Below are positions 24,364-34,531 of a DNA stretch of 64,000 nt, in pieces (position 1 is the stretch's first letter; every line of letters begins with the position of its first letter). Below the pieces are notes generated by a model. That model saw nothing but the letters and a program-made list of their open reading frames with translations, was not told the origin of the DNA and searched no databases. Location: the NCBI GenBank assembly GCA_017434825.1, contig JAFSGC010000004.1, forward strand, positions 62,001-126,000, read 5' to 3'. This DNA is from Bacilli bacterium. Lineage in GTDB: Bacteria; Bacillota_I; Bacilli_A; RF39; UBA660. The translations under genes were made by a program, and so were the position numbers.

Positions 24364-25500
24364 CTATATAATAAATTTGCCATTTTCCATTATTGGAATT
24401 TCTTCATTGTCTTTTGTTCCTGTTACTTTTAAATCATCAGTACCAAACATAAAATCAACATGAATCTGCGATTTATTGATTTTAGTTCCATTACCGAATC
24501 CTCTGCCAAGAGCTAAATGACACGAAGCATTTTCATCTAACAAAGTTGTTTTAAAGACAATATTAGTTTTGCTAATTGGGCTATCACTTTCTACAAAAGC
24601 TAGTTCTCCCAAACGTGATGAGCCTTCATCATATTCAATAATGCTTTGTAAAATTTTCTTTCCTTTTTTTGCACCATATTTAATTACTTTTCCATCTTTA
24701 AATTCTAAATAGAAATCATCAATTACAGCGCCATTATAATAAAGTGGTCTTGAGCTATATACTGTCCCTTCCGCTTTAGTGCAGTCTGGACTAGTAAATA
24801 TTTCATAACTAGGCATATTAACTAATACTTCGGTTTCTCCGACTCCTTCGAATTTATAGTTTTTTGGCAAACCTAATTTAAGATTTGTACCTAAACCATT
24901 TTCTAAAACAATATAATCTAAGTTTAATTTATTAATTTTGTTAATAAAGGATTTACTTCTTTCTATTTGATCTGTCCAATTTAGTGAAGCTTTTTTGTCT
25001 ACCTTACAAATTTTATATAGTATGTCCTCTAGATTATTTATACCAAGTTCTTTTTCCCAATATTCATTATATAAAGGTAAAATTGACCAAGAAATTTTGT
25101 AGTTTGTTTCTAATTCTACAAAATACTTTTTAGTACTACTTTTTATTTTTGAAACTAAAGCTAATTTTTCATCATCGATATCATTCATAAGACCAGGAAT
25201 TGGACTTACAAACATTAAAAATGCAGCTTTCTTTTTCGCATATTCATCATAAATACTTGAATCAAAATACTTACTCTCTTCAATTTGTTCGCAAGTAGAA
25301 TTTGCTAGTAAATCATGCTCATAAAAAGGATCGATACACTCAAGATATATATCATTAATTTTAGTATTTTCTAGTTTTTTTAAGAGTTTCTGAATAAAAC
25401 CTTCATTATAAGAATTATATGATATGAATAGACTTTTACTATGTTTAAATGATACACACTTTTCTAAAATTAAATCAATATAATAATCCTCTTTTTTCAT
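24364..25500 (-). CDS. M29-family aminopeptidase (AmpS/PepS-like)
   Basis: The 378-aa protein has the M29 C-terminal catalytic half: NMPSYEIFTSPD, RLGELAFVES, ENASCHLALGRGF and QIHVDFMFGTDDL, which carry the Glu, His and Asp metal ligands. It cleaves N-terminal residues from peptides in the cytoplasm. It is slightly short for the family (about 400 aa). It is the last gene of an operon with two ABC proteins; its ATG overlaps the stop of the 807-aa ABC gene as TAATG. That linkage suggests a joint role in peptide handling, which is inference. Confidence 0.85.
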   Translation of the reverse strand: MKKEDYYIDLILEKCVSFKHSKSLFISYNSYNEGFIQKLLKKLENTKINDIYLECIDPFYEHDLLANSTCEQIEESKYFDSSIYDEYAKKKAAFLMFVSPIPGLMNDIDDEKLALVSKIKSSTKKYFVELETNYKISWSILPLYNEYWEKELGINNLEDILYKICKVDKKASLNWTDQIERSKSFINKINKLNLDYIVLENGLGTNLKLGLPKNYKFEGVGETEVLVNMPSYEIFTSPDCTKAEGTVYSSRPLYYNGAVIDDFYLEFKDGKVIKYGAKKGKKILQSIIEYDEGSSRLGELAFVESDSPISKTNIVFKTTLLDENASCHLALGRGFGNGTKINKSQIHVDFMFGTDDLKVTGTKDNEEIPIMENGKFII

Positions 25501-27923
25501 TAGTCTAAATCCTTTCTTGCTAATATTTCCGCAGGAGATTGTTTAATAACATTAGCTACAGGTAGTAATCCAACCATAAGATTAAAACCATACATCAATA
25601 TTATACTTAGTATGATTGTTCCAACATTTACAACATAGTTTTGAGCAAAGTATGAAATTGTTGTTAATGAATCTAAGCAATAACTTACAAATATAATTCC
25701 AGGAATACATGCAATTGTTGTAATTGCAAATATTTCCCCGAAGAACATTTTATAAATATCACTTTTCTTAACTCCAATAGCTCGATATATACCGATTTCT
25801 TTAATTCTTGATAAGAACGATGCTCTAATCATTAGATATATTTCGATAAATGAAATTACCAAAATAACTGCACTTACAATAATACCAGCTTTAACCATTC
25901 CTGCTCTTGATTCATTGTAAGATTTTAAACTAGCCTCATAAGAAGATATAATATTTAAATTTTGATTATTAAATTCTTCGATAACTCTACTTTCATCACT
26001 TGGCATTACAGTTAGGTTTCGAGCAGATTCAATTATCTTATATTTTAAAGTATTTCCATTTACATAGAAATTATAATTGTCACTTTCATAATAACCTACT
26101 ACAGTAAGCTTAGTATTATTTATCTTATCATCTATTTTTTTATTAAGTGGATACTCATACTCGCTATTAATATTAACTATTACTTCATAGTCATTTTTAG
26201 GAAGTCGTCCTTTTTTCAAATTAATGTTATAGAATGTATAGTCTTGATATGAATTAGTATCTTCATCCATTTCAATATCATATCCCCAATCATCAGATAC
26301 CGAATTGGCAAGCATACTAATAAACATTGTTCTATCTGCATAAATCGAAGGATCACTTTTATCAACTATACCTACGATTTTGAAAGCATCTAGATTTTTT
26401 AAGTATACATCCTTATTAAGAAGTTCTTCCACTTTCGTTATACCCACTTGTTTTGGTGTTATATCAATTTCAAACATGTTTTCAATCGCCATTTTATCAA
26501 CAACTATTTCATACTTACTTTGAGGCAGTCTACCGTAAATAAGATCGGTTTTAAGTAATAAATCAGTAGCTACTAGTGAGCCTGATAAAACTGAGGATGC
26601 ATCCTTTGTTTGATAAAAATATGGATATTTTACTGCAAAATTAATATTTCCACTTCCTGGTAAAATATAATCTACACTTTCAAGCTTTTCATATTTTAAA
26701 TAATTATCTACCAAAACATTTGGATAAGTAACATTATAATAGTAATGATTCTTTTCAATAAAATCCTCATCTTTAACATTCATAAGACCAGCAATATTAC
26801 TTACAGAATATGTAATAAAACATCCTGAACCTAAAAATCCCAATAAAAGAAGTTTTTTAATAAATGAATAATCAATTATTTTCTTAAATCCATTAACAAG
26901 CAAACTAACCGGATTAAATATAGAACTATAACGTAATTTCTGATTTTTATCAATTATTTCGTTAAAATTAAATTCATACTTCTCATAGACTGACTTATCA
27001 ATTTGTTTATAATGATCATTAATAAATTCGATATTTGAATCATTATCCACTACTTCAATCTTATCATTTTTACTTCCTTTGATATAAATATTATTATTCT
27101 TAACAACAATAGTTAGTTTAATATCATTTTTCTTATCATTATAGATAGTTATATTATTATCTTCGTTAGAGAGATTTGAAATATGCTTAAAGTCTTTTAA
27201 ATAAATCTTATTATCAATTCGATAATCTAAGTTGTTATTATGTTTGTTTTCATAATCATTTTTAATAGTTCCATCTTCGATTTCAATAATTCGATCCGAA
27301 TAAAACTTAGCTATGTCACTTTCATGAGTAACTAATAAAACCAATCTTGTTTTAGAAATCGATTTGATAATATTCATTATTTCAATAGTATTAGCACTAT
27401 CTAAATTCCCTGTGGGTTCATCTGCTATGATGATACTTGGATCTTTAACTATAGCTCTAGCTATGCCTACTCTTTGTCTTTCTCCACCAGAAAGCATACT
27501 CGCAAGGCGATTACGATAACGATATAATCCTAAAGTTTCTAAAACATAATTTACTCTTTTCTTTATTTCGTCTTTATCTTTAATCCCTATCATCTTAAGA
27601 GATATAGCAACATTATCAAAAACTGTTTTATTATCAATTAAATAATAATTTTGAAAGATATAACCAATGTTTAAGTTTCGAATTTTATCAATTTTACCAG
27701 AGCACTTTCTAGTTATTTTTTGGTTATTTACGTAGATATTTCCACTTTTAACTTTATCTAAACCCCCGATTGCATTAAGAAGTGTTGTTTTACCACAACC
27801 GGAAGGTCCTAATAAAGCGACTAAGCCACTATCAGGAAGCTCTAAACTAGTATTATTGATAACATGGATTTCATTTTTCTTATGATGATTAAAGTATTTA
27901 TTAACTTTTTCAAGTAATATCAT
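25500..27923 (-). CDS. Fused ATPase-permease ABC protein (MacB/FtsX-like), second of pair
   Basis: The 807-aa protein has an ATPase (1 to ~225: GPSGCGKTT, LSGGERQRVG, IIIADEPTGNLDS, VTHESD). A cytosolic insert follows (about 230-340), Asn/Asp/Lys-rich and beta-like (NNIYIKGSKNDKIEVVDND). After that come one helix (~355-375), a large extracytoplasmic region, and three helices near 680-790. The C-terminal SFIEIYLMIRASFLSRIKEIG and YRAIGVKKSDIYKMFFGEIF are typical FtsX/MacB permease features. It likely pairs with the 741-aa neighbour. RBS AGGAGGTG. The substrate is unknown. Confidence 0.84.
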   Translation of the reverse strand: MILLEKVNKYFNHHKKNEIHVINNTSLELPDSGLVALLGPSGCGKTTLLNAIGGLDKVKSGNIYVNNQKITRKCSGKIDKIRNLNIGYIFQNYYLIDNKTVFDNVAISLKMIGIKDKDEIKKRVNYVLETLGLYRYRNRLASMLSGGERQRVGIARAIVKDPSIIIADEPTGNLDSANTIEIMNIIKSISKTRLVLLVTHESDIAKFYSDRIIEIEDGTIKNDYENKHNNNLDYRIDNKIYLKDFKHISNLSNEDNNITIYNDKKNDIKLTIVVKNNNIYIKGSKNDKIEVVDNDSNIEFINDHYKQIDKSVYEKYEFNFNEIIDKNQKLRYSSIFNPVSLLVNGFKKIIDYSFIKKLLLLGFLGSGCFITYSVSNIAGLMNVKDEDFIEKNHYYYNVTYPNVLVDNYLKYEKLESVDYILPGSGNINFAVKYPYFYQTKDASSVLSGSLVATDLLLKTDLIYGRLPQSKYEIVVDKMAIENMFEIDITPKQVGITKVEELLNKDVYLKNLDAFKIVGIVDKSDPSIYADRTMFISMLANSVSDDWGYDIEMDEDTNSYQDYTFYNINLKKGRLPKNDYEVIVNINSEYEYPLNKKIDDKINNTKLTVVGYYESDNYNFYVNGNTLKYKIIESARNLTVMPSDESRVIEEFNNQNLNIISSYEASLKSYNESRAGMVKAGIIVSAVILVISFIEIYLMIRASFLSRIKEIGIYRAIGVKKSDIYKMFFGEIFAITTIACIPGIIFVSYCLDSLTTISYFAQNYVVNVGTIILSIILMYGFNLMVGLLPVANVIKQSPAEILARKDLD

Positions 27924-27926
27924 AAA

Positions 27927-30152
27927 TTACACCTCCTCACGATATGCGCGCATCGCAGATGATTTAAATAATTTTCTAGAATATGTCCAAGAAAGTAACA
28001 TACTCATTAACAGTAAAATTAGATAGATTACCACAAACTCACGAATGCCTAAATTCGAAGTAATCGCCGCAATAAAGCCATTAGATATAATATTTGTATT
28101 AACTAAAATGGTTAAGAGCATAAATAAGAAGAAAGTTAAGTGATATACAGTGTATAGCTCAATACTAATCAATTTTTTTATAACCTTTTTACTCCCGCCC
28201 AAGATTCTTACAGTAGAATAATATACATTTTTAGACTTTTGGATTAATTTAATTACAAAGTAAGTTATAAAGAATAACACTATAAATAGTACTATTGTAA
28301 CAATAATTTTAAAAATATTAATTATTTGAGCTATTCCTTCATTGTAGTTATATAAAGAATCTTTAATCTTTAATGTATAAAAGCCAAGATCTTCTAACTT
28401 TGTTGCAAGTTTATCAACATCAGATGCTTCATTTGCAAATACACTACTTTGGAAAGTATATTTATTATATAATTCATTATAATCATCATAAGAAATAAAA
28501 ATTGTTCCATAATAATCATCATAATTATCGAATTCTGTTAACTTTTTAAAATTATCCTTATTAAAAGTATTTTTAATATTTACTTCAAGGCTTTCTTCAT
28601 AATATAGGTTTTTAATTTTTATATCTACAAGATTATCATAGCAATTCATATTTTTGCATAAATGCGATAAGTCTGTATGAATTAATGCTGTTCCTTTTTC
28701 AACATTTTTACTTGGAATTAAACTCATATAAGAAGAATAACCATCAACTTTTTCGTAGTGTCCATTTATGCCAATTGTTAATTCTGCAAATCTTTTATTA
28801 GTTAATAAACGAGCCTGATTTAACACCTTGTCAGTCACATAAATTGTATCATCATCATAGTCATCATGATAAATAATACCTACTACTTTAAGTTTTTGAT
28901 TTGTGGCTATAATATCACCATAATCATCATAAATATTTAGTTCTTGATTAAATAGTTCCTCATAGTTAATTAAATAATAATCATATTCATAACCCTTTAC
29001 AACAACTTCATTATCATTTTCTGGCAGTCTACCAACATCAACACTATCTATAGAATTTACGTTTTCTAATTTTCCCCATACATAATATTCATTATTATTT
29101 AGGTCATATGATGTATCTAGTAAAATGTCATCTTTTTCAATTCTTTGAACTTCTTCAAGGGTTGTTATAGCATTAAAATCTTCATTCGTAAAATACGAAC
29201 CATTTGATTTTTTTATGACTATTCTAGTAGCAGATATATCTCTAAAGAAAGCACTATATCCACTTTTAGCTTCTTCCTCCGCTAAGTTTTTAAATACGGA
29301 ATATTCTCCTAAAAATGCTACAATTATAAATAAGAAAACTAGAAACATTAATACGAATTTAGGAACAATATTAAATGTGTTTCTTATTCCTAATAACACC
29401 TTATTAATAAATCTTATATCTTTATATTCATTAAGTGTTATATTACTTTTATTATATTCTTTTAAACTAATATCTTCGCGAACTTTACCATCATGCATTT
29501 CAATTTTACGAGTAGCATATTTTTCTACTTGATCATAATTGTGAGTAACAACTACAACCAGTTTATCTTTGGCAATTTCTGATAATAATTTAATAATACT
29601 CTTAGCACTTTTAGAATCCAAATTTCCTGTTGGTTCGTCTGCAATAATTATTGGTGTATCTTTAGCAAGAGCTCTAGCTATTGCCACTCTTTGTTTTTGT
29701 CCACCAGACAGTTTTGATACTCGTGTATTTTTAAACTTAGACAAATCAACCTTTTCAATTAAGTCAATTATCTTATCATGAACTTCGTGTTTTTTGAAAC
29801 CATTTAATAATAGAACCAATTCAATATTTTGATATACGGTATAACTACTTACAAGATTAAAAGTTTGAAAAATATTACCAATATAGGTTTTTCGATAATG
29901 TTCAAAATCACTTTCATTATAATGGCTAGTTTCTTCTCCATTAATATATAGTTCGCCTTCTTCATAAGAATCTAGTCCTGATAAGACATTTAAAAGAGTG
30001 GATTTTCCTGATCCACTCTCTCCTGTTATAACTACAAATTCTCCCAAATTAAAATCTAGGTTAACGCGAGTAAAACCTGTAGCAACTAATCCTTTATTGT
30101 AATAAAATTTACTAACATTTTTAAGTTTTAACAAAGGCATTTCTTTACCCAT
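27927..30152 (-). CDS. Fused ATPase-permease ABC protein (MacB/FtsX-like), first of pair
   Basis: The 741-aa protein has an ATPase (GESGSGKST, LSGGQKQRVA, IIIADEPTGNLDS, VVTHNYD), one helix near 262-282, a large exported region of about 330 residues and three C-terminal helices. The topology is mechanotransmission-type (MacB-like), coupling ATP use to work outside the membrane. The two genes are 3 nt apart and both ATPases look complete, so a heterodimer is likely. RBS AGGTGAT is 5 nt before the ATG; TATAAT at 30176-30171 is the likely -10. Confidence 0.84.
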   Translation of the reverse strand: MGKEMPLLKLKNVSKFYYNKGLVATGFTRVNLDFNLGEFVVITGESGSGKSTLLNVLSGLDSYEEGELYINGEETSHYNESDFEHYRKTYIGNIFQTFNLVSSYTVYQNIELVLLLNGFKKHEVHDKIIDLIEKVDLSKFKNTRVSKLSGGQKQRVAIARALAKDTPIIIADEPTGNLDSKSAKSIIKLLSEIAKDKLVVVVTHNYDQVEKYATRKIEMHDGKVREDISLKEYNKSNITLNEYKDIRFINKVLLGIRNTFNIVPKFVLMFLVFLFIIVAFLGEYSVFKNLAEEEAKSGYSAFFRDISATRIVIKKSNGSYFTNEDFNAITTLEEVQRIEKDDILLDTSYDLNNNEYYVWGKLENVNSIDSVDVGRLPENDNEVVVKGYEYDYYLINYEELFNQELNIYDDYGDIIATNQKLKVVGIIYHDDYDDDTIYVTDKVLNQARLLTNKRFAELTIGINGHYEKVDGYSSYMSLIPSKNVEKGTALIHTDLSHLCKNMNCYDNLVDIKIKNLYYEESLEVNIKNTFNKDNFKKLTEFDNYDDYYGTIFISYDDYNELYNKYTFQSSVFANEASDVDKLATKLEDLGFYTLKIKDSLYNYNEGIAQIINIFKIIVTIVLFIVLFFITYFVIKLIQKSKNVYYSTVRILGGSKKVIKKLISIELYTVYHLTFFLFMLLTILVNTNIISNGFIAAITSNLGIREFVVIYLILLLMSMLLSWTYSRKLFKSSAMRAYREEV

Positions 30153-30200: not shown

Positions 30201-30410
30201 TTATTTCTGGTTGCTTTTTCGGTTGCGCTTTTTCTTTTTATCATCTTCGAAGATGTTATAAGTTTGTGTTTTTGAATTATCAATAATTTCATTAGGGTTT
30301 TTCTCTTCTGAATTATCCTTTACTTTAACTTTTTTATCTTTTATTTCAATTTCTTTTGTTTCTTCAAGTTTGTTATCTACTACTTTAGGTTCTTCATTTA
30401 TTTTGTTTTT
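30201..30410 (-). pseudogene. In-frame continuation of the cohesin gene beyond an amber codon
   Basis: Immediately after the TAG at 30413-30411, 69 sense codons follow in the same frame before a TAA at 30203-30201. They encode a highly charged tail (KNKINEEPKVVDNKLEE..., ending KKKKRNRKSNQK). No start codon with an RBS is present. It looks like the cytoplasmic tail of the anchored protein cut off by a point change (for example AAG, CAG or GAG to TAG), or a read-through extension. Confidence 0.6.
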
Positions 30411-31685
30411 CTATTTACTTTTATTTCCCTTTTTAGATAAACCGATTATTCCAAATAACGCTAGAACGGTTGATACTACGAACGCTAATGTTGAATATGT
30501 AAGCATTGTATTTTTTTCTTCAAGCATTTTTATATATTCTTCATCATACTTCATAATTGTTTGATCTTTTGTATCATATAAGTATAATCCTTGTTCTTTT
30601 GTTTCAACATTTAATCCATATATTAATTTAAAACGTGAGTTTTCATTTAATGTTAATACTTCAATATCAGCTTCTTGAATTTTTATTGTTGTCCTTTCGT
30701 AACTTTCAAGACTTTCTTTCATTTCCATAGGATAGATACTTATACCACCAAAACTCAATTCAATATATTTTTTATATGTATCATTTTCATATATAAATAG
30801 TGATACATTACCTTCTTCATCTTTTAAACCTACTAGGTTAAATTCTGTTACTTCACTATAAAATCCTGGAATATCAAATTCTTGAATTACTAAATTTTTT
30901 TCAACATAACTCTCTGGTTTTGTTAAATTACTAGCAATTTTTACCACTGTGTATTTTTTACCATCAACTTCGACATTTATTGGATTTTTATCAATAACCT
31001 CTACATTTAATTTATAAGTTTTTTCACTACCATTTTGAGCAATTACTACGATATCAAAACTATTACTTCCGGCGGATACTTCAACTTCACCAGCTCCACT
31101 TATAGTGGCAGTCTTATCCTCTGCTGTTGCATTTATTTTTACTTTAGTTTCATCTTCATTTACTTTCACCGAATACTCTAAAACATCTTTACTAAATTCC
31201 GGGGTAATTTCATATCCTTCAACTGTTAGATTACTTAAATTATTATTTGATGATAAACTAGCTTGATATTCTGAATAAGTTAATGTTTTTATTGTTTTGG
31301 AACCATCATTTACTCCTAGAATTCTTTCATCCCAGTCAACTACCATTGATGAATCTATATAAAACTTGCTAGAACCACTTTTTAATGCCTTAAATACATA
31401 CTTATATTGAACTGATTTTGTATTACCATTACTAGCATATGCAGCATAGTGAACACCAACATCTGAGCTTTGTAACTTGAAAACTGAACTGTCATAATTT
31501 AAAGTATATTCCCAAGAGCCTAACGCCGCTGCTGATGATACAGTTACATAAACAGTTACATCCTTTCCTACTATTACTTGATTAGAACTGCTGCTAACAG
31601 ATATTGTAGCACTCGCAGCATTTACTACCGAAGTAAATGATAACGAAATAAATAACGTTAATAAAATATTTAATACTTTCTTCAT
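30411..31685 (-). CDS. Membrane-anchored cohesin-domain protein
   Basis: The 424-aa protein has a signal peptide (1 to ~23). A cohesin-type beta-sandwich follows at about 24-150 (TISVSSSSNQVIVGKDVTVY, GSWEYTLNYDSSVFKL, and a YKYVFKALKSGSSKF core). A cadherin-like sandwich lies at about 172-245 (NLSNLTVEGYEITPEF, ATISGAGEVEVSAGSN), then a beta-rich region, and one helix near 395-418 followed by SKKGNKSK. Cohesins bind dockerins, and the gene 9 nt upstream encodes a dockerin-bearing wall hydrolase, so this is probably its surface receptor. The frame continues past the amber stop. The cohesin call rests on pattern recognition and needs a profile search. Confidence 0.72.
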   Translation of the reverse strand: MKKVLNILLTLFISLSFTSVVNAASATISVSSSSNQVIVGKDVTVYVTVSSAAALGSWEYTLNYDSSVFKLQSSDVGVHYAAYASNGNTKSVQYKYVFKALKSGSSKFYIDSSMVVDWDERILGVNDGSKTIKTLTYSEYQASLSSNNNLSNLTVEGYEITPEFSKDVLEYSVKVNEDETKVKINATAEDKTATISGAGEVEVSAGSNSFDIVVIAQNGSEKTYKLNVEVIDKNPINVEVDGKKYTVVKIASNLTKPESYVEKNLVIQEFDIPGFYSEVTEFNLVGLKDEEGNVSLFIYENDTYKKYIELSFGGISIYPMEMKESLESYERTTIKIQEADIEVLTLNENSRFKLIYGLNVETKEQGLYLYDTKDQTIMKYDEEYIKMLEEKNTMLTYSTLAFVVSTVLALFGIIGLSKKGNKSK

Positions 31686-31694
31686 ATTTCTCCT

Positions 31695-33641
31695 TTAACT
31701 AATGGTTAAATAACCTAATATATGTTTTTGAATTCTTAATAAATCTACGATATCAACAATACCATCTTGATTAGTATCTCCAGCCTTTAAATAACTTCCA
31801 TTTAAATCAGTATATCCTAAAATAAATTTTTGAACTCTTAATAAGTCCTGAATATTTATATTACCATCACCTGTCGGATCTCCTTTAATGACAATATTAT
31901 ATGTTACAGTGTCTCCTCCATTAGTAATTGTAACAACATCACCAGTTGATAAATTCCCAGATGCTTTATTAGTAACGCTTACTTTTGCAGTTGCCGCAGT
32001 TTTTTGTGCTAATGACGTAATATTTTCAACTGTATTTCCTGCAGTAAGTAGCATATGATTTTCGCTTAATGGGACGTTCATATTATCTACAATGTCTTTT
32101 ACACTCATTTCAATTCCATCTGTTCTAACTACCTTGATAGTATATTTTTGAACTGATTTATTCTCTGCAGTTACAATGACTTCAATTTTGTTTTCAGTTT
32201 CTAAAAGTTTAATATTTCCTGTACCACTAATAGTAGCTTTAGAATTAATCGCAGTAGCTTCTACTCTTACTTCTTGAGCTCCAGAAGATACATAATGTGT
32301 ATATTCATAATTATCATGAGCAAAGCCTTTTATATCTTTACCATTTATTGTTAGTTTATTAAGATGATTATTAGGATTTCCCTTTTCAGGAAGACTATAT
32401 TTTTGATCACTCATATTACTATATACCGGGATAACAAAAGTAAACGCCGTGCTTTTAAGCAAATCCATATCTTGATATCCGTCATAAGCTATACTAGCTT
32501 CGCTATATGCAGCTTTTACATTTGTCATATATTGATGTGAATATGTAGAGTATTCAGAATAAGAACTGGTGTTATATTTTTGGAAATAACCTGTATCTTG
32601 TCCTTTAGCAATATATGTTACAGATATAACTTGAGCTCCACCGGTAATTGCATTTGGGATATTATCCCACGGTCTTAAATAAGTGGTACCTGCGACTGCC
32701 CAAACCAAACCATCATGAGCACCGGTATTTGCTCCAATGTTATATGGATTATATACATGATCGTATGTAATTCCATTGTATGTAACTGCATTACCTGCTA
32801 AAGAATAACTTGAATAATTTGCTCCTGTTTCTTGTCTGATTCTACTTGCTAAATAAATGGCATTGATATTATTATCTCTGGAAGCAGTATATATAGTTTC
32901 AGAATAAGGCGCCAAGTCTCTTCCATTAAGAACAGTTTGTACTGCTTCTACAGTTTGATACTCTTCATCAAATGATAATTTTTCAAACATAAAGATATAT
33001 CTTTCATCTAAAAAGTTTCTAGGGTCTAGATAATATGCAACCACATCAGGACTAGCAGAATACCAATTTTTTCCCTCTTTAACAACAAAAGTATCAGTTA
33101 AATAATCATAAGAATCAGTTGTAGTAGATAAATAACCTTGGTATGAAGTTTGAATTAAAGATTTCTTTCCAACAGCTTCTTTAGATACTGCAACTGCAAA
33201 GTCTAAACCATTAACATCAGCTTCGAAACTCCAGTTAGGATACTGACTCTTTAACGCACATAACTCAGGCCAATACGTTTTTGGAAAACCAGCATTTGCT
33301 AATTCCTTTTCACATTCAGTTGTTGGTGTATCATGAACTTCTTCGATAGTTATTAAAGTAACATATGAGGAGCATATATATCCAACTGATTCACCAGAAT
33401 AATATACTTTATACCATCCGTCAGCACAGCCTCTTTCAGTAGCCACTTTTTGATTGGAAACCATATCAAACGTTGCATTAACTGCAGCCTTACGTACATA
33501 ATCATAATTTGTCCCTGGGCCTTTACGAATATAAACATCACTATATGGTACTTTTGCTTTGACTGTTGCTGCGCTTACGTAAAAACTAGCACTAAAAAAA
33601 GAGGCAATAGAAATTAAAAGTATCAATAAGATTTTTTTCAT
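31695..33641 (-). CDS. Secreted N-acetylglucosaminidase with SH3b, cadherin-like and dockerin domains
   Basis: The 648-aa protein has a signal peptide (1 to ~24) and a bacterial SH3 domain (~27-95: VYIRKGPGTNYDYV, GWYKVYYSGESVGYI). A LytG/GH73-like glucosaminidase domain spans ~115-390, with the catalytic-Glu motif YLASRIRQETG and YNPYNIGA. A cadherin-like sandwich lies at ~405-500. A type I dockerin lies at ~587-648, with two calcium loops (DPTGDGNINIQD and DTNQDGIVDIVD), each followed by a LLR(V/I)QK helix. It should cleave peptidoglycan glycan strands and dock on a cohesin. The RBS is AAGGAGG. Confidence 0.85.
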   Translation of the reverse strand: MKKILLILLISIASFFSASFYVSAATVKAKVPYSDVYIRKGPGTNYDYVRKAAVNATFDMVSNQKVATERGCADGWYKVYYSGESVGYICSSYVTLITIEEVHDTPTTECEKELANAGFPKTYWPELCALKSQYPNWSFEADVNGLDFAVAVSKEAVGKKSLIQTSYQGYLSTTTDSYDYLTDTFVVKEGKNWYSASPDVVAYYLDPRNFLDERYIFMFEKLSFDEEYQTVEAVQTVLNGRDLAPYSETIYTASRDNNINAIYLASRIRQETGANYSSYSLAGNAVTYNGITYDHVYNPYNIGANTGAHDGLVWAVAGTTYLRPWDNIPNAITGGAQVISVTYIAKGQDTGYFQKYNTSSYSEYSTYSHQYMTNVKAAYSEASIAYDGYQDMDLLKSTAFTFVIPVYSNMSDQKYSLPEKGNPNNHLNKLTINGKDIKGFAHDNYEYTHYVSSGAQEVRVEATAINSKATISGTGNIKLLETENKIEVIVTAENKSVQKYTIKVVRTDGIEMSVKDIVDNMNVPLSENHMLLTAGNTVENITSLAQKTAATAKVSVTNKASGNLSTGDVVTITNGGDTVTYNIVIKGDPTGDGNINIQDLLRVQKFILGYTDLNGSYLKAGDTNQDGIVDIVDLLRIQKHILGYLTIS

Positions 33642-33739: not shown

Positions 33740-34531
33740 TTAGCCTAAAGCTACATCTAGAATCATCATGATAGAAAAACCAATAATGGTAAACAACGCC
33801 ATTAGGTCTTTGCATTCATTTGATTGACTCTCAGGTATCAGTTCTTCGACTACAACATAAATCATAGCGCCGGCTGCAAAAGCCAACAAAAACGGTAAGA
33901 TAAATCTTACTTTTAAAACTAACAGAGCTCCTACTACTCCAGCAATTGGTTCTACTACTCCTGTCATTCCGCCAATAAGAAAAGCTTTTTTACGACTGAA
34001 GCCCTCTCTTCTTAATGGTAAACTTACTGCTGTTCCCTCAGGAAAATTTTGAATACCTATTCCTATGGCTAATATTAAGGCCGATATAGCAGTAGCTCCT
34101 TCAATACCATAAGCAATAGATCCAAACGCAACACCAATGGCTAACCCTTCAGGTATATTGTGAAGCGTAATTGATAAAACCAACATTAAGGTTCTCTTAG
34201 CTTTGCTATTTTCTTTATTTTTTATTAATTTTGGAAATATTTTGTCTCCAGAAAACAAAAGCATTCCGCCCGCAAAGAATCCTATAAAGGCCACTAGCCA
34301 AGGAATCATATTCAATTCTTCAGCTAGACTTAATGCTGGATTTAAAAGCGAAAAGAACGCAGCTGCTATCATTACTCCAGCAGCAAGCCCTAACATTCCA
34401 TCAAGAAGATTTTTATTTACTTTTTTGAAGAAAAATACTATTGCAGCACCCAAAGCCGTAATTCCCCAGGTAATCATACAAGCAATAAATGCTTGAACGA
34501 CATTATTTAATTCTAAAAAATATGATAACAT
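33740..34531 (-). CDS. ZIP-family metal transporter (ZupT/GufA-like)
   Basis: The 263-aa protein has eight predicted helices with the two metal-binding helix motifs HNIPEGLAIG and QNFPEGTAVS and a late VVEELIPES. ZIP proteins bring Zn or other divalent metals into the cytoplasm. An intracellular loop (KNKENSKAKRT) separates helices 3 and 4. It is divergent from pgeF, with a short shared upstream region. RBS GGGTGG precedes the ATG. Confidence 0.9.
   Translation of the reverse strand: MLSYFLELNNVVQAFIACMITWGITALGAAIVFFFKKVNKNLLDGMLGLAAGVMIAAAFFSLLNPALSLAEELNMIPWLVAFIGFFAGGMLLFSGDKIFPKLIKNKENSKAKRTLMLVLSITLHNIPEGLAIGVAFGSIAYGIEGATAISALILAIGIGIQNFPEGTAVSLPLRREGFSRKKAFLIGGMTGVVEPIAGVVGALLVLKVRFILPFLLAFAAGAMIYVVVEELIPESQSNECKDLMALFTIIGFSIMMILDVALG

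Follow-up and report, generated by a model that had tools for sequence, protein, structure and literature searches.

Cohesin-dockerin pairing is known mainly from cellulosomes, in which one scaffold carries many enzymes. Single-cohesin transmembrane proteins and non-cellulosomal cohesins are also known. The nonSLH-anchoring scaffoldins include single-cohesin proteins with a C-terminal transmembrane (TM) helix, for example in Lachnoclostridium sp. MSJ-17, and a few such scaffoldins could dock as many as 39 dockerin proteins (PMC11557425). In Clostridium perfringens, non-cellulosomal cohesins (PDB 2jh2, 2vo8, 2w1n) belong to a surface-enzyme setting outside cellulose degradation, and the cohesin sits within the enzyme (GH84C, family 33 according to the PDB titles). 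A partner protein can also keep a glucosaminidase at the membrane. The SagB of Staphylococcus aureus is already membrane-associated, and it is scaffolded to cut nascent strands by SpdC, an integral membrane protein of CAAX-protease-like type (PMC10581084).

We analysed a 64,000-nt stretch of DNA (the window) from an RF39 Bacilli bacterium. It contains a gene for a predicted secreted peptidoglycan hydrolase with a dockerin, which precedes the gene of a membrane-anchored cohesin receptor on the minus strand with 9 nt between them. The coordinates and the gene order agree with those of an earlier, sequence-only reading. The dockerin shares its sequence type, duplicated calcium loops and recognition positions with cellulosomal type I cohesin-dockerin pairs (PDB 1ohz, 2vn6). 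Unlike in cellulosomes, no multi-cohesin scaffoldin is found in the genome, and the enzyme is not for plant polysaccharide. The receptor cohesin is most similar in fold to those of C. perfringens, but it is placed on a dedicated membrane receptor encoded beside the dockerin enzyme. The receptor also resembles the nonSLH-anchoring scaffoldins in having one cohesin and a C-terminal TM helix, and would likewise be a surface dock; here, in contrast, the genes are adjacent and about one to one, and the dockerin is mostly on a peptidoglycan hydrolase. As in SagB-SpdC, a second protein would keep a related glucosaminidase at the membrane, but here the enzyme is predicted to be soluble and a cohesin receptor takes the place of SpdC. 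The features of the locus are as follows.

31695..33641, minus strand: hydrolase gene; 648 aa, predicted secreted peptidoglycan glucosaminidase with a type I dockerin at its end
33570..33641, minus strand: hydrolase signal peptide; residues 1-24, VSA/AT, probably of signal peptidase I type from its motif
33360..33542, minus strand: hydrolase SH3_3 domain; residues 34-94, Pfam 29.0 bits, cut-off 27
32460..33098, minus strand: SagB/Atl-type glucosaminidase core; residues 182-394
32829-32831, minus strand: aligned catalytic Glu271 of the hydrolase
32124..32363, minus strand: hydrolase Cadherin-like domain; residues 427-506, 32.9 bits
31716..31886, minus strand: hydrolase type I dockerin; residues 586-642, two intact Ca2+ loops
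31686..31694, minus strand: spacer AGGAGAAAT; 9 nt, with a Shine-Dalgarno-like AGGAG
30411..31685, minus strand: membrane-anchored cohesin receptor gene; 424 aa to the first stop
31260..31613, minus strand: receptor cohesin domain; residues 25-142, by Pfam and fold
30999..31238, minus strand: receptor Cadherin-like domain; residues 150-229, 42.1 bits
30516..30998, minus strand: receptor region without Pfam match; residues 230-390, conserved among receptors
30438..30506, minus strand: receptor TM helix, predicted from sequence, followed by the positively charged KKGNKSK
30201..30413, minus strand: in-frame TAG, then about 70 open codons after the receptor, encoding a genus-conserved cytoplasmic tail (...YNIFEDDKKKK...)

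The pair is flanked downstream by two large FtsX-type ABC transporter genes (25500-30152, minus strand) and upstream by a ZIP transporter gene (33740-34531); these transporter genes adjoin the pair only in close relatives. The short spacer with its AGGAG suggests that hydrolase and receptor may be on one transcript. Since neighbouring genes hardly ever stay with the pair beyond the genus, while the pair itself is kept much more widely, the pair is the conserved unit.

The hydrolase C-terminus matched the Pfam profile Dockerin_1 (PF00404) over its full length (1-57) with 37.6 bits, which is about 15 bits above the cut-off of 22.9. Its Ca2+ ligands are D588-T590-D592-N596-D599 in loop 1 and D622-N624-D626-D630-D633 in loop 2, and the ligand positions of both repeats are conserved in an alignment of 175 sequences. 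The recognition-type residues are I597/Q598/R602 and I631/V632/R636. The catalytic region matched SagB (NCBIfam, E 1e-16), but its 60.7 bits are under that family's cut-off of 425, so the hydrolase is not SagB itself. It also matched the SagB/Atl structures PDB 6u0o, 6fxp and 6fxo (E 2e-11 to 4e-9, with 2e-11 for 6u0o and 6fxp), and Glu271 is invariant in the 145 aligned sequences covering that position. Together with the signal peptide, these results bear out the sequence-only reading of a secreted glucosaminidase ending in a two-loop dockerin. Membership of Pfam Glucosaminidase (PF01832) was dropped, because the whole genome gave zero matches to this family even at E 1. No TM helix other than the signal peptide was seen in the hydrolase sequence, so the enzyme is predicted to be soluble after signal-peptide cleavage.

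The receptor has the domain order signal peptide, cohesin, Cadherin-like domain, uncharacterised region and TM helix. Its match to PF00963 Cohesin was marginal (25.7 bits, 1.6 bits over the cut-off of 24.1), and the orthologue in a genus relative (G001) scored 34.7 bits. Because the receptor score was near the threshold, the fold was tested by an AlphaFold2 model. The modelled cohesin domain had pLDDT values mostly of 92-98, and its best PDB fold match was the C. perfringens cohesin 2jh2 (E 2e-8, TM by target 0.66). The C. perfringens cohesins came first in the match list, followed by cellulosomal and archaeal cohesins; other beta-sandwich proteins were also among the matches, mostly weaker. 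Profile match, fold match and TM helix together sustain the earlier description of a cohesin-like sandwich on a membrane-anchored neighbour, and the Cadherin-like domain claimed to be common to both proteins was recovered in each. The absence of a cohesin profile or fold match, a confident alternative fold, or broken calcium loops in the dockerin had been named as grounds for giving up that description; none of these occurred, as both matches were obtained and the loops are intact.

The receptor gene itself looks truncated in the assembly, because the roughly 70 open codons past the TAG encode a tail like that of genus relatives. This tail is rich in lysine, and its ...Y(N/D)IFED..KKKK motif is conserved among the relatives. 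The TAG is probably a truncating variant or an assembly error.

Whole-genome Pfam searches of the 1.07-Mb assembly gave one PF00963 match and three PF00404 matches, so a cellulosome, which would need a multi-cohesin scaffoldin and several enzymes for plant polysaccharides that bear dockerins, was rejected. The dockerin census proposed with the sequence-only reading thus counted exactly three proteins, and each gene is followed by a receptor gene. By eye, one of the other two dockerin proteins is leucine-rich-repeat-like and one has Ig-like repeats. The receptor-type genes behind them, at -4 and +10 nt, encode a signal peptide, an N-domain, a Cadherin-like domain and a TM helix. Consistently, a receptor profile had exactly three full-length matches in the genome (on C10, C11 and C5), each adjoining a dockerin gene. 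With three dockerins and three receptors, all adjacent, the genome holds three pairs and no spare parts, and the three pairs belong to three different dockerin/receptor classes. The earlier idea of a one-enzyme docking system stands in that each enzyme has one receptor, but three such systems are present in the genome rather than a single one.

Instead of being a dedicated partner, the receptor cohesin could accept every dockerin protein of the cell, as a minimal cellulosome. Two dockerin proteins of relatives fit this reading: in G003, a class C protein (L095) has no adjoining receptor, although another locus of that genome has a class C pair, and in G016 an adjoining receptor is likewise absent from a papain-like class B protein (L086). 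We consider this very unlikely, as the genome of the window has one receptor per dockerin, each of another class, most receptors have a single N-domain, and class matching is near complete.

Across the uncultured gut family, dockerins were present in 220/291 genomes and 120/150 genera, and in 3/23 genomes from other families of the same class. A dockerin search alone, in which the partner was not used, gathered 140 distinct C-terminal dockerin genes. For 122 of the 140, a signal-peptide partner lies directly downstream and starts within -30 to +60 nt, mostly at +8 to +14. Five of the 140 are class B M6-like peptidases with a class B receptor directly upstream. An adjacent receptor on either side was therefore found for 127/140 dockerin genes; the other 13 are mostly tandem dockerins or unusual ones from a single genome (G028). 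The partners are uniform, with a Cadherin-like domain in 175/178 and a C-terminal TM helix in 156 of the 157 complete ones. The cargo enzyme is of the same type as the window hydrolase in 157/175 pairs; papain-like and M6-like peptidases and leucine-rich-repeat proteins are also carried in this genome or in relatives.

Several loci showed other arrangements. The reversed-order pairs are the M6-like peptidases L068, L206, L219, L175 and L198 with the receptors L305-L309. The unusual dockerins of G028 (L109, L115-L118; GDWNGNG...) have no adjoining receptor and occur in this one genome. In L121 (G026:C82:6000-9901), a dockerin (a partial match), a cohesin, a Cadherin-like domain and a TM helix are found in one ORF, as if the two genes were fused. 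Dockerins are internal in ORFs of about 2400-3100 aa (L083, L085, L107 and L119 in G018, G020 and G025), and the long internal-dockerin ORFs in G018:C8, G020:C43 and G025:C1 also match cohesin. ORFs of 1893-3029 aa with many Cadherin-like matches were observed in G258:C22, G258:C24 and G251:C23.

The dockerins were sorted by recognition helix into the classes A (DLLxxQK), B (DYVxxKN) and C (DLLxxRQ), and the partner N-domains were clustered independently. Each dockerin class corresponded to one N-domain cluster, in 118/118 cases for A, 23/24 for B and 10/14 for C; these counts come from the unfiltered table, because one outlier of class B and four of class C had been dropped from the leave-one-out class test. 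In a mirror-tree comparison of 157 hydrolase pairs, the dockerin correlated with the partner N-domain at r 0.77, with its own catalytic domain at r 0.39, and the N-domain correlated with its own Cadherin-like domain at r 0.47; the partial r for dockerin and N-domain was 0.69 versus at most 0.17 for controls, in sequences that are phylogenetically related, so that permutation values should not be read as exact probabilities. For class A alone, the partial correlation was modest (0.38, versus 0.33 for dockerin and own enzyme). The class A dockerin columns with most covariation were I597, R636, R602 and I631, which are the same two positions in both repeats, and the top single covarying pair was cohesin Y96 with dockerin I597. 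I597 and I631 fall on a position classically linked to specificity in type I dockerins. The pairing, which the sequence-only reading had drawn from adjacency, now gains the adjacency of 127/140 genes, a mirror-tree signal well above controls and covariation at dockerin recognition positions.

The main confounder is DNA linkage or cassette exchange of the dockerin and N-domain coding regions, which are about 100 nt apart in most loci and could add to the correlation. In its strongest form, the pair would be kept for a shared place of need with no mutual binding at all, and the correlation would come from linkage and cassette exchange. The complex model leaves room for this. When dockerin and cohesin were modelled with AlphaFold2 by reading through the stop (31 sequences, intervening signal peptide included), each domain was confident (pLDDT 90), but the pTM of 0.56 means that their relative placement was not, so the structure modelling proposed earlier gave the domains and not the complex. 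However, the equally close Cadherin-like domain tracks less and the five reversed-order M6 pairs retain the class match, which argues that linkage is not the whole cause, and covariation concentrates at the dockerin recognition positions. Pairing without binding is highly improbable in our view. Since the dockerin and receptor halves change together across many related genera, our results suggest that a cellulosome-type fastener pins single enzymes to their own cell surface.

The receptors of the other classes are less easily named. Among the Pfam families shown, class B N-domains (e.g. L080) had no cohesin match, and in the genome-wide search the class C N-domain of this genome had no PF00963 match. 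The class B N-domain of this genome scores as Big_2. A model of a class B N-domain with its Cadherin-like domain had S-layer/Ig-like folds first among the PDB matches. As these best matches are not cohesins, we do not call class B a cohesin without qualification. Profile-profile comparison linked the N-domains of all classes at 92-98% (98% for class B versus class A), versus about 5% or less for the Cadherin-like domain and a small Big_2-like control. The class B and C N-domains are either cohesins that have diverged greatly and become shorter, or an Ig-like domain in their place. That several mutually exclusive classes serve as plug-in anchoring pairs in one small genome, with Ig-like or strongly shortened B and C receptors as a new kind of dockerin receptor, has in our estimate slightly less than an even chance.

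Taken together, the hydrolase and its receptor very probably form a dedicated docking pair, whose predicted binding would hold the enzyme at the outer face of the membrane. The hydrolase would be exported, its signal peptide cleaved and the enzyme left soluble, with no membrane anchor of its own. The C-terminal dockerin would fold on two calcium ions and dock on the receptor's outermost domain, the cohesin, while the C-terminal helix of the receptor would sit in the membrane; on present sequence data, this binding is the simplest reading of how a membrane tether may be supplied. The Cadherin-like domains may be spacers. The SagB-like glucosaminidase would be kept near the outer face, where new glycan strands emerge, instead of diffusing. 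Pairs of other classes would serve other surface proteins in the same genome and in relatives, and such parallel classes would let each enzyme find its own receptor. We infer physical binding, calcium dependence, membrane-proximal action and lack of cross-talk. Anchoring at a chosen envelope site, as the sequence-only reading suggested, would go beyond the sequence, which supports no more than the outer face of the membrane.

The target of the docked enzyme was also considered. The pair may bind as proposed but the docked hydrolase be used against other bacteria, or to scavenge wall fragments, and not to remodel the wall of its own cell. For uncultured Bacilli of the orders RF39 and ML615J-28, it has been predicted that steps of peptidoglycan precursor synthesis are missing and that scavenged muropeptides are needed (PMC10868615), and the module also carries peptidase-like proteins. 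Five penicillin-binding transpeptidases are encoded in the genome, however, so the cell probably has a wall and a wall-less cell was judged unlikely, and the catalytic domain is similar to those of SagB and Atl, which act on the wall of their own cell. We regard a foreign target as unlikely, at perhaps one chance among several. Replacement of a missing sortase anchoring, which could be imagined as some related orders (RFN20, ML615J-28) have no sortases (PMC10868615), was rejected as extremely improbable, because this genome has three sortase matches and at least one was found in 36/37 family genomes searched.

In the open-access literature, most subscription journals being outside this scope, we found neither this two-gene layout nor a wall hydrolase tethered by a dockerin to a receptor of its own described before, nor any account of such pairs in these gut Bacilli, and no paper with 'dockerin' together with 'RF39'. 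The use of cohesin-dockerin in a conserved two-gene unit that serves a peptidoglycan hydrolase, with several pair classes in one genome, appears to be new. We conclude that the pairs are putative cognate one-enzyme/one-receptor units, which would mostly tether a predicted wall hydrolase to the membrane. If the binding is true, the about 180 cognate pairs already sampled would be a natural set from which to decipher how specificity is encoded, and they might be used as orthogonal fasteners in surface display. In these bacteria, the two-gene unit seems to attach individual enzymes, in most cases a wall glucosaminidase, to the membrane of the producing cell. Again if the binding is true, this would be a way of anchoring that differs from lipidation, sortases and S-layer domains.
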